A stretch of DNA of 23,294 nt from a virus: IMG/VR virus record IMGVR_UViG_3300017917_003907, positions 1 to 23,294 of that record. One strand, given 5' to 3'. The position numbers were made by a program, and so were the translations under genes. How positions within the stretch are numbered: the first letter of the stretch is position 1; each line of letters starts with the position of its first letter. This document shows, one piece after another, positions 3,652 through 6,042 of the stretch. The notes beneath the pieces were generated by a model. That model was not told the DNA's origin. It worked only from the letters and a program-made list of their open reading frames with translations, and made no database searches.

Positions 3652-4635
3652 ATGGAACAACAAGATAAAGATTTTGCAGGTAAAGGTGGGTTCAATTGGT
3701 GGTTTGGTTTTGTGGAAGACCGAAAAGACCCAATGAAATTAGGACGACTTAAAGTTCGTGCAGTAGGTTGGAACGCAGATAATAAAATGCAATTACCAAC
3801 TTCTGCTTTACCTTGGGCTCAAGTTGCATTTCCTGTAAATCATAGTAACACATATGCACCAAAAGAAGGTGATATGGTTTTTGGTTTTTTTGTTGATGGA
3901 GAAATGGCACAACAACCAATTGTTCTTGGTGTTTTCTCAAGTATTCCTTTAAAATCTGCAAATATTCAAGAACCATTTAGTGACCCAAGAAGTGCATCTG
4001 AACTTGCTTCATCACCTAGAAGTCCAGAATCAAAAACATACAATACTGATGGAACAGGAATTACAATTGCAGAAAAATCTCAAGCAAGTAATTATCCTTT
4101 AAATTTAGATGAACCAACTACATCTAGGCTCGCAAGAAATGATTCTGATACAATCACCAAAACTTTCATACAAGAAAGAAAAAATAATAAAGTATCTGGC
4201 GTTCCAACGGCAACATCAACATGGAACGAACCAGAGACAAAATACGATGCGGTTTATCCATACAACAATGTAATGGAGACCGAATCTGGTCATATTGTTG
4301 AATATGATGACACACCAGGTAAAGAACGAATTCATATTGCACACCGAAATGGTAGTTTTACGGAATGGTATCCTGATGGTGACAGAGTAGAGAAGATTAC
4401 AAAAGACAAATACACTATCGTTATGAAAGATGATAATGTTTATATTATGGGAGATTGCAACATTACTGTTCAAGGAAATGCCGAAGTTTATGTGCAGAAA
4501 AATGCGACAGTAAAGATTGATGGAAATGTAGAAGTTGAAGTTGGTGGTAATTACAATGAACAAGTTGGCGGAACATATACAGTAAACTCTGGTGGTAATA
4601 TGAAGTTTACTGCTCCTCGTATTGATTTGAATTGA
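3652..4635 (+). CDS. 5: gp5-like baseplate hub needle, OB-fold and beta-helix, no lysozyme domain
   Basis: Encodes 327 residues; the ATG lies one base after the preceding stop. Residues about 13-103 form the gp5 OB-fold, with FNWWFGFVEDRKDPMKLGRL, ALPWAQVAFPV, EGDMVFGFF and PIVLGVFSSIP in the order of T4 gp5. Residues 208-225 carry METESGH followed by EYDDTPGKERI, the block that in T4 opens the C-terminal needle. Residues about 255-327 are octad-like repeats (such as NITVQGNAEVYV and VEVEVGGN) of the triple-stranded beta-helix, ending APRIDLN. Known: gp5 trimers form the cell-puncturing needle and sit in gp27. T4 gp5 has 575 residues with a lysozyme domain between OB and helix. Here a polar linker of about 105 residues, with no lysozyme motif, replaces it. 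The protein therefore pierces but should not digest peptidoglycan. Confidence 0.9.
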   Translation: MEQQDKDFAGKGGFNWWFGFVEDRKDPMKLGRLKVRAVGWNADNKMQLPTSALPWAQVAFPVNHSNTYAPKEGDMVFGFFVDGEMAQQPIVLGVFSSIPLKSANIQEPFSDPRSASELASSPRSPESKTYNTDGTGITIAEKSQASNYPLNLDEPTTSRLARNDSDTITKTFIQERKNNKVSGVPTATSTWNEPETKYDAVYPYNNVMETESGHIVEYDDTPGKERIHIAHRNGSFTEWYPDGDRVEKITKDKYTIVMKDDNVYIMGDCNITVQGNAEVYVQKNATVKIDGNVEVEVGGNYNEQVGGTYTVNSGGNMKFTAPRIDLN

Positions 4636-4636
4636 T

Positions 4637-4852
4637 ATGACACATGAGTTTGTTATCTTATTGAATGGTGAGTTATTAACATATACAAAGTATGAAGATA
4701 TACCCGAAAAATTTGATAATGTGATTCGGTTTATACCTAAAATACCAGAACCACCACATACAAATGAACAACATGTGGAGATTGATTCTTGGAACGATAA
4801 ATTGCAGGAATTAATGAAGCGAGAAACAAATGGCCGTAACATTAACAATTAG
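4637..4852 (+). CDS. small protein of unknown function between gp5 and the PAAR gene
   Basis: Encodes 71 residues (MTHEFVILLNGELLTYTKYE...), acidic and proline-containing, with an amphipathic C-terminal helix (about residues 48-65, WNDKLQELMKRE). The ATG lies one base after the gp5 stop, and the 3' end overlaps the next gene by 23 bases in another frame, so the three genes are probably translated together. I do not recognise a domain; there is no signal peptide or membrane segment. Its place inside the spike cluster suggests a virion or assembly role with gp5 or PAAR, but this is inference from position only. A longer minus-strand frame covers this region and is rejected because gp5 motifs are clear on the plus strand. 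Confidence 0.7.
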   Translation: MTHEFVILLNGELLTYTKYEDIPEKFDNVIRFIPKIPEPPHTNEQHVEIDSWNDKLQELMKRETNGRNINN

Positions 4853-5321
4853 TCCTGCTGGTGATGACCCATTAACACAAATACAGTCAACACCAAGGTC
4901 AACAAGAACAATTAATGCAACAATTATTCCTACAGGCGATGCAGGAGAAGTCATTAATAATGTTACTGCTCAATTAATGAGTACCGGTGCAAGTGTTATA
5001 ATTACACCAGGTACAACAAGTGTAATGATTGTTGGAAAATATAGCGATCCATTTAAAGACTCATTTCAATATGTAAGTAAAGGTAGTTCTAATAAAATTG
5101 AAACATCAACAACAATTGTAGGTGTAGATAATGTGCCAAAAAATAAAGAATTGTTTAATTTAAATCAAGACACAAAACCAATTGAAACATTTACATATCA
5201 AATTATCGTTGATTATGATGACGAATTTTTTGTACCAACAAAAGAGACATATACAGTAACCCATGACATATACAACGAGTGGGAAGGTATTCGTTCTTTC
5301 ATGGACACTTATTACGACTAG
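4830..5321 (+). CDS. putative virion structural protein, unknown, in the hub/spike cluster
   Basis: Encodes 163 residues beginning MAVTLTISPAGDDPL. The composition (Thr, Ile, Val, Asn; few charged clusters) and alternating strands such as SVIITPGTTSVMIVG and FTYQIIVDYDDEFFVP suggest an all-beta fold, possibly one or two Ig-like sandwiches. No catalytic motif, signal peptide or transmembrane segment is visible. The start lies inside the preceding 71-codon gene; the stop TAG overlaps the strong ribosome site (AGGAGA) of the PAAR gene. Sitting between the needle gene and its PAAR tip, it could be a spike-associated or baseplate decoration protein, but I cannot assign a T4 counterpart. Confidence refers to the gene being real. 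Confidence 0.75.
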   Translation: MAVTLTISPAGDDPLTQIQSTPRSTRTINATIIPTGDAGEVINNVTAQLMSTGASVIITPGTTSVMIVGKYSDPFKDSFQYVSKGSSNKIETSTTIVGVDNVPKNKELFNLNQDTKPIETFTYQIIVDYDDEFFVPTKETYTVTHDIYNEWEGIRSFMDTYYD

Positions 5322-5329
5322 GAGATAAT

Positions 5330-5620
5330 ATGCCGGCCGCAACAAGAATTGGAGATGCAGATTCCGCACATTGCTCAGGAATGGTTCGAGCAGTAGGATC
5401 GGGAAATGTGTTTGTCAATGGAATTCCTTGGTCTCGTCAAGGTGATGTAAACACCGTGCATTTGTTACCAGGTTCTCCTTGTCCAGCACATAACGCACCA
5501 ATCGCCACAGGATCCTCTAAAGTTTTTGTTAACGGAAAAGGTGCCGGCCGAGTTGGAGATGCATTATCGGGATGCACATCTGTTGCAGCAGGATCCAGCA
5601 ATGTCTTTGCCGGAGGTTGA
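5330..5620 (+). CDS. 5.4: PAAR-motif spike tip protein (T4 gp5.4-like)
   Basis: Encodes 96 residues from ATG 5330, chosen because AGGAGA at 5320-5325 lies just upstream and MPAATRIGDADSAHCSG is the usual PAAR start; the frame extends 17 codons upstream to 5279, inside the previous gene. Three related turns are visible: GSGNVFVNG (23-31), GSSKVFVNG (61-69) and GSSNVFAGG (88-96), with RxGD motifs at 6-9 and 74-77. Candidate metal ligands are H14, H44, C51, H54 and C82. Known: PAAR proteins fold into a small cone with a metal ion near the tip and sharpen the gp5/VgrG needle; T4 gp5.4 has about the same length (97). The stop is followed within 12 bases by the gp25 start. Confidence 0.92.
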   Translation: MPAATRIGDADSAHCSGMVRAVGSGNVFVNGIPWSRQGDVNTVHLLPGSPCPAHNAPIATGSSKVFVNGKGAGRVGDALSGCTSVAAGSSNVFAGG

Positions 5621-5631: not shown

Positions 5632-6042
5632 ATGACAACAATTACTACTACCGAAAATTTTACTAGAGATTTTAGAGATTTGGACTTGAGTTTCAACATT
5701 CATCCTGTTCGAAAAGATGTGAATGTGCATAAGAGTGAAAGAGCTGTAATTAATTCGATTAAAAATCTGATTCTTACAAATCACTATGAACGACCTTTTC
5801 AGCCTGAATTGGGAAGCAATATTCGCCGACTTTTGTTTGAAAATGTTGATTCCGTCATGGCCGCACAAATCGAAAGAGAAATAGAAGAAACGATTGAAAA
5901 CTTTGAGCCAAGAGCGCAAATTTCAAATGTTACCGCAATTGCAGCTCCAGATGAAAACAAATATGAAGTTATAATGGAATTCTTCGTAATTAATAATCCA
6001 AATCCAATTACAATCAATTTTTTCCTAGAACGGATTAGATAA
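5632..6042 (+). CDS. 25: gp25-like baseplate wedge protein
   Basis: Encodes 136 residues, almost the length of T4 gp25 (132). The sequence shows the family layout: an N-terminal DFRDLDLSFNIHPV segment, a helix with ERAVINSIKNLILT, RPFQPELGSNIRRLLFE (54-70), and the FEPR motif at 91-94 in a helix-to-strand turn. It ends in beta strands with VIMEFFVINNP. Known: gp25 (TssE-like in type VI secretion) bridges gp6 and the hub, and the EPR motif nucleates sheath assembly. GGAGG at 5612-5616 is farther from the ATG than usual (about 15 bases). The gene is followed two bases later by gp6, its structural partner, an arrangement typical of T4-like phages. Confidence 0.93.
   Translation: MTTITTTENFTRDFRDLDLSFNIHPVRKDVNVHKSERAVINSIKNLILTNHYERPFQPELGSNIRRLLFENVDSVMAAQIEREIEETIENFEPRAQISNVTAIAAPDENKYEVIMEFFVINNPNPITINFFLERIR

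Follow-up and report, generated by a model that had tools for sequence, protein, structure and literature searches.

A T4 gp5.1 relative and a small companion gene form an exchangeable cassette with the PAAR spike-tip gene of T4-type phages

T6SS VgrG-PAAR modules have adaptors and effectors, the effectors being carried by the PAAR proteins. In phage T4, the genes at the corresponding place follow the order gene 5, gene 5.1 (164 aa), segC, 5.3, and 5.4, the PAAR gene. Across eight named T4-like loci, PAAR lies downstream of gp5.1 in seven and directly adjoins it in six; the exception is AhFM11, where PAAR is upstream, near gp53. With the T4 proteins as queries, tblastn found relatives of gp5.1 in 1194 phage records and of gp5.4 in 1424. 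T4 gp5.1 is PHROG 1168 (5.5e-67), which is labelled 'unknown function', and no published function was found for it in the literature searched, which held few subscription papers and no supplements.

The stretch of DNA analyzed here, called the window, is an IMG/VR virus fragment of 23,294 bases that contains a T4-type baseplate cluster, with genes in the order gp53, a hub protein in the gp27 position, gp5, ORF71, ORF163, PAAR, gp25, and gp6. The features in and around the region of interest are the following.

3652..4635, + strand: gp5-type central spike, with OB fold and triple beta-helix (phrog_430, E 1.7e-81; PF22178, PF06714)
4637..4852, + strand: ORF71, 71 aa, ATG start (phrog_24555), small obligate companion of one PAAR subtype
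4830..4852, + strand: overlap of 23 bases, the end of ORF71 and the start of ORF163
4830..5321, + strand: ORF163, 163 aa, ATG start, gp5.1 family (phrog_23903, joined to phrog_1168, that of T4 gp5.1)
5330..5620, + strand: PAAR spike-tip protein, gp5.4 counterpart (PF05488, E 1.2e-15; T4 gp5.4 is found by its profile)
5632..6042, + strand: gp25 baseplate wedge protein (PF04965, E 4e-13), right-hand border of the cassette

The window gp5 is short (327 aa), has no Pfam match to a lysozyme domain, and ends in ...APRIDLN, a C terminus of the PAAR-accepting type when compared across 80 loci. The downstream gene encodes a PAAR motif domain protein (57.9 bits to PF05488, against a cut-off of 27) and starts at the ATG at 5330, with AGGAG just upstream; mechanical ORF listing gives a longer GTG start. 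This protein is the counterpart of T4 gp5.4, placed after gp5 and before gp25/gp6, but it differs from T4 gp5.4 in being of a subtype that is always accompanied by ORF71 wherever the locus is complete enough. Elsewhere in the window, a 76-aa ORF at 20435-20665 matches phrog_473, a virion structural protein (E 3e-11).

A preliminary description of the region had the 71- and 163-codon genes sharing 23 bases, which is exact, and packed against gp5 and PAAR without gaps; the packing is tight, but 1 base follows gp5 and 8 precede PAAR. Both are genuine genes, as judged by purifying selection, PHROG matches (E 9e-15 for ORF71 and 8e-27 for ORF163), and recurrence in many contigs. The dN/dS values were 0.12 to 0.16 for ORF71 in two of three comparisons, dS not being computable in the third, and 0.17 to 0.26 for ORF163 in all three. 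Using X for a gene of the ORF163/gp5.1 type in the surveyed loci, we found that X starts before ORF71 has ended in 16/16 loci ordered ORF71-X-PAAR, and the 23-base overlap probably couples translation of the two genes.

We found that ORF163 belongs to the T4 gp5.1 family. When profiles of 16 ORF163 relatives and 8 T4-like gp5.1 proteins were compared with hhalign, columns 1-148 aligned with columns 1-161 at a probability of 97%, an E value of 9.4e-11, and a score of 68.7; the maximum score with 200 column-shuffled gp5.1 alignments was 20.3, and a reversed alignment scored 15.6. Five marine ORF163 relatives (L128, L179, L130, L122, and L138) match both PHROG 23903 and PHROG 1168, while neither ORF163 itself nor its relatives L044 and L036 matched phrog_1168 directly, and an HMM built from gp5.1 proteins only matched 16 IMG/VR ORFs (best, 4.5e-9). 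The AlphaFold2 model of ORF163 (pLDDT 86.5, pTM 0.77) has 11 strands and a helix at residues 151-162, a predicted Ig-like beta-sandwich with a C-terminal helix, so the earlier impression of an all-beta protein fits the model apart from that helix. Its BFVD neighbors, all of them predicted models, include gp5.1 proteins of T4-like phages, among them Acinetobacter phage 133 D9I689 (TM 0.64/0.71) and a Henu6 protein (0.63/0.67); against the PDB, it matched only generic Ig-like domains (Z about 8). The profile comparison, the bridging PHROGs, and the BFVD neighbors together overturn, for ORF163, the statement that neither gene matches a T4 gene. T4 gp5.1 resembles ORF163 in nearly full-length profile homology, in length (164 and 163 aa), and in its slot between gp5 and PAAR, although identity in the profile alignment is 19%, and T4 differs in having segC and ORF 5.3 between gp5.1 and gp5.4 and no ORF71 before gp5.1. 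ORF163 is not a new kind of gene, its T4 family being widespread though uncharacterized.

ORF71, on the other hand, is a new small protein that is restricted to phages within the data searched. We found it in 16 cyanophage records and at least 542 IMG/VR stretches, and a search of 84,980 bacterial and archaeal genomes returned 27 pattern matches, with no relative among them. Residues H3, H41, H46, and W52 are among those invariant in 20 sequences. Its predicted model (pLDDT 83.5) consists of a beta-hairpin, a third strand, and a helix at 43-62, and gave no significant fold match in the PDB (Foldseek/VIA). The preliminary description credited ORF71 with only an amphipathic C-terminal helix; the helix is predicted, but only its second half is amphipathic (moment 0.45-0.61), and the hairpin and strand had been missed. 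Neither ORF71 nor ORF163 matched a Pfam family at E ≤1. T4 5.3 was considered as an ORF71 counterpart and rejected, giving no HMM match; it seems to be a fragment of the homing endonuclease next to it. A relationship between ORF71 and gp5.1 was likewise rejected, the profile score of 20.2 being at noise level.

A survey seeded with gp5, and so unbiased by ORF71 or X, covered 80 loci, 10 of which end inside the interval, leaving 70 that are complete; locus counts throughout include near-identical contigs, and identical rows are collapsed in the trees and in the distance and C-extension comparisons. In 28/70 complete loci, gp25 follows gp5 after 40 to 46 bases, and PAAR, ORF71, and X are all missing, absence of PAAR here referring to the gp5-gp25 interval only. 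The other 42 loci carry PAAR, arranged as ORF71-X-PAAR in 16, ORF71-PAAR in 13 (10 of them with an unclassified gene for 225-331 aa between the two), X-ORF71-PAAR in 1, X-PAAR in 6, and PAAR alone in 6 (one of which holds another 202-aa gene). ORF71 or X is present in 0/28 PAAR-less and 36/42 PAAR-bearing gp5 loci, and because their presence follows PAAR, we conclude that they are tied to PAAR and not to gp5. The conserved coupling with the spike that had been proposed therefore holds for PAAR specifically, but the ORF71 and X pair is not universal, occurring in 17/70 complete gp5 loci and 17/42 of those with PAAR. Counted over all gp5 relatives, the pair is absent from most; in 28 of these loci, however, PAAR is missing as well, as would be expected of genes that function at the tip.

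Seeding with the other genes gave the same association. PAAR lies downstream in 77/80 ORF71-seeded loci and in 60/63 X-seeded loci, and the three remaining in each set are cut within 520 and 85 bases, respectively. Among 313 loci, neither ORF71 nor X was ever fused to PAAR or gp5; a joined PAAR-gp25 ORF in L111 seems to be an assembly artifact and was rejected as a true fusion. In the Prochlorococcus phage P-HM2, the homologue of ORF163 is 40% identical, and the order ORF71-ORF163-PAAR is kept (L001 4711-5727) near gp25/gp6; unlike in the window, gp5 does not adjoin the trio, so the three genes can hold together away from gp5.

When mapped on a tree built from 94 PAAR proteins, the distribution of ORF71 needs 1 change, compared to a shuffled mean of 15.9 (0/500 as low); this tree has few alignment columns and its loci were found partly through ORF71. 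We therefore performed the converse, PAAR-seeded test, in which ORF71 was found in 75/80 loci, the other five having PAAR 15 to 574 bases from the contig start; that is, ORF71 is kept in 75/75 PAAR loci where it could show. X was missing from 44/80 ORF71-PAAR loci. In contrast, mapping the three tip states on a tree built from 51 gp5 bodies (residues 1-245) takes 16 changes, where the minimum is 2. Because ORF71 changes once on the PAAR tree and the tip state 16 times on the gp5 tree, we conclude that ORF71, ORF163, and PAAR are an exchangeable tip cassette that has been swapped between gp5 backbones of related viruses. Distance correlations over 53 distinct loci, computed from pairwise distances that are not independent of one another, were 0.61 for ORF71-PAAR (0.58 after gp5 is removed) and 0.24 for gp5-PAAR, while gp25 distances follow gp5 (rho 0.67) more than PAAR (0.37). 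In loci L007-L009, gp5 is 91-92% identical to that of the window and PAAR only 52%, and ORF71 and X are absent.

All 28 PAAR-less gp5 proteins have an extra C-terminal tail, which is of the GAARIGD...VIIGG/D type in 21 and contains an HxH motif in 7. The former is a tail of about 40 residues (GAARIGD...GSxTVIIGG) at the gp5 3' ends of L016, L019-L021, L025, L039, L051, L054, L055, L058, and L061 and also of L063-L065, L071-L073, L076, L077, L083, and L085. Compared to the PAAR profile, it scores 24.6, versus 18.5 in 100 shuffles, over 15 columns, a faint likeness to half a PAAR that is only suggestive of a reduced PAAR. The other tails (HTHTD/HSHPD; L031, L032, L047, L048, L053, L059, and L060) are reminiscent of metal-binding spike tips, such as the iron-bound tips of the P2 and Mu spikes.

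The slot between gp5 or ORF71 and PAAR varies in content: it may be empty or hold a gp5.1-like gene, a gene for a 225-331 aa protein, or a gp5.1-like gene together with a fibre-like one. The 225-331 aa proteins, encoded between ORF71 and PAAR, are of no known family (L068-L070, L075, L078-L082, and L084); membership in the gp5.1 family was not established for them (E 0.38 and 0.012), and they match a large X profile at 3e-4. A fibre-like gene (202-322 aa) lies between X and PAAR in 6/53 distinct X loci with PAAR downstream (L128, L163, L164, L165, L170, and L179), 'fibre-like' being a reading of the sequences in which only the L128 protein matched tail-fibre PHROGs, and weakly. In these loci, X has a tryptophan-rich C-terminal extension of 36-41 residues (6/6, versus 0/47 of the others), a pairing that suggests a structural anchor. 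The seventh long X-PAAR gap is that of T4, filled by segC. Homing endonucleases of two kinds lie just upstream of PAAR, T4 segC (L087:4197-4619) and an HNH enzyme in MA01 (L005:4189-4701). In cluster C cyanophages, a slot protein encoded before ORF71 shares about 52 C-terminal columns with X (probability 90%, E 1.6e-6, score 45.4, against at most 16.5 in 100 shuffles).

We read bases 4637-5620 as a cassette for the tip of a central spike of the T4 type, in which PAAR caps the gp5 trimer. These genes are best explained by a role at the tip, a reading that we consider about evenly poised. Homology, synteny, PAAR dependence, and cassette exchange between gp5 backbones are established above; the roles that follow are inferred. 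ORF71, with its small beta-hairpin and helix, would bind its PAAR subtype and either keep the free PAAR subunit from unfolding before it reaches the gp5 trimer or clip it in place. ORF163/gp5.1 would be a low-copy, Ig-like accessory located at the PAAR tip or close to it, and the C-terminal extension that some relatives of the gp5.1 type possess may anchor a further, fibre-like protein. The overlapping starts would couple synthesis of ORF71 and ORF163 to that of gp5 and PAAR.

A more tentative extension of the tip reading is that the cassette is the phage counterpart of the T6SS PAAR-adaptor-cargo module. In such a module, ORF71 would be a subtype-specific loader or clip and gp5.1 a docking platform that holds extra proteins, including fibre-like ones via the tryptophan-rich extension, and recombination within gp5 would let phages switch between bare tips built into gp5 and armed tips made with PAAR. 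The cassette is like T6SS VgrG-PAAR modules in that small genes are linked to one PAAR type and a variable slot lies beside PAAR, but it differs in that neither of its two small proteins matches any Pfam family at E ≤1.

The main rival is that ORF71 and gp5.1/ORF163 are assembly factors only, which chaperone PAAR or the gp5 C terminus and are gone from the finished virion. We keep this possibility, which we also hold to be rather doubtful, because gp5.1 is missing from the structures, from the gp5C-gp5.4 complex, and from the virion list of Klebsiella phages VMC03/04. No PDB chain matched gp5.1, and the solved T4-type baseplates that have gp5 and gp5.4 give it no place as a stoichiometric component of the T4 virion spike: T4 gp5.4 is present in 5iv5, 9mkb, 9mog, and 4ku0, while 9f4b contains gp5 and PAAR of another T4-type spike, with gp5.1 in neither the T4 nor this second baseplate model. 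Strict PAAR dependence is also compatible with a chaperone, and Ig-like pilus chaperones are among the many Ig folds that resemble ORF163. In the virion list of cyanophage S-CREM2, as given in PMC10665884, ORF214 (the ORF71 homologue) and ORF215 (PAAR) are absent. The same purified-virion proteome contains ORF213 (2 unique peptides, 7.8% coverage; Table 3), an X-like cluster C slot protein, which argues against a factor that leaves the particle; this is the sole virion evidence, and it is weak for X, since ORF213 by itself reaches just 7.4 bits with the X profile. In the VMC03/04 (Jiaodavirus) virion data reported in PMC13119998, gp5 has 52/45 spectra, and no gp5 neighbor that could be gp5.1 exceeds the 15-spectrum cut; judged by length and copy number, a single-copy gp5.1 would probably give about 5 spectra, below that cut. 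The Morganella phage MP1 virion list passes from gp141 to gp147, with nothing of the gp5 region by inferred numbering, and so bears on neither view. Against a chaperone role, T4 gp5C and gp5.4 form a 3:1 complex when those two proteins alone are coexpressed, as described in PMC7600766, which argues against a need for gp5.1 in docking in T4. The X extension that accompanies the fibre-like gene also points to a structural anchor.

That ORF163/gp5.1 is instead a payload, riding on PAAR until it is released into the envelope or cytoplasm of the host in the manner of T6SS effectors, we regard as improbable. The variable content of the slot before PAAR would suit a payload, as would the names given to its relatives: PHROG 23903 is called 'toxin', its isolate members being from Prochlorococcus phages P-HM1, P-HM2, and MED4-213, and the P-HM2 copy is annotated 'putative RTX toxin'. 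RTX proteins are recognized by glycine-rich, calcium-binding nonapeptides. We rejected this identity for ORF163, which has 0 matches to the nonapeptide repeat and in which Pfam shows neither a catalytic nor a toxin domain. That the family is conserved in T4-like phages whose hosts are unrelated, and under purifying selection, is more in keeping with a part of the machine than with an effector. Weakest of all, and very unlikely, is that both genes merely hitchhike between gp5 and PAAR, for although homing endonucleases do enter the interval and X is frequently absent, the unbroken retention of ORF71 beside its PAAR, its single change on the PAAR tree, the persistence of gp5.1 in over a thousand phage records, and the low dN/dS of both genes speak against it.

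New here are the findings that gp5.1 and the 'toxin' family are one, that this joint family depends strictly on PAAR, that one PAAR subtype is obligately accompanied by a small protein, and that PAAR cassettes and tails built into gp5 replace one another. The gp5.1 gene neighbors the tip gene in the most thoroughly studied of contractile machines; linking it to the cyanophage 'RTX toxins' corrects a misleading label and, with the recombining, PAAR-dependent cassette, points to a concrete role in tip assembly or arming. With PAAR and two gp5 tails of different kinds, T4-type phages thus have no fewer than three spike ends that can stand in for one another.
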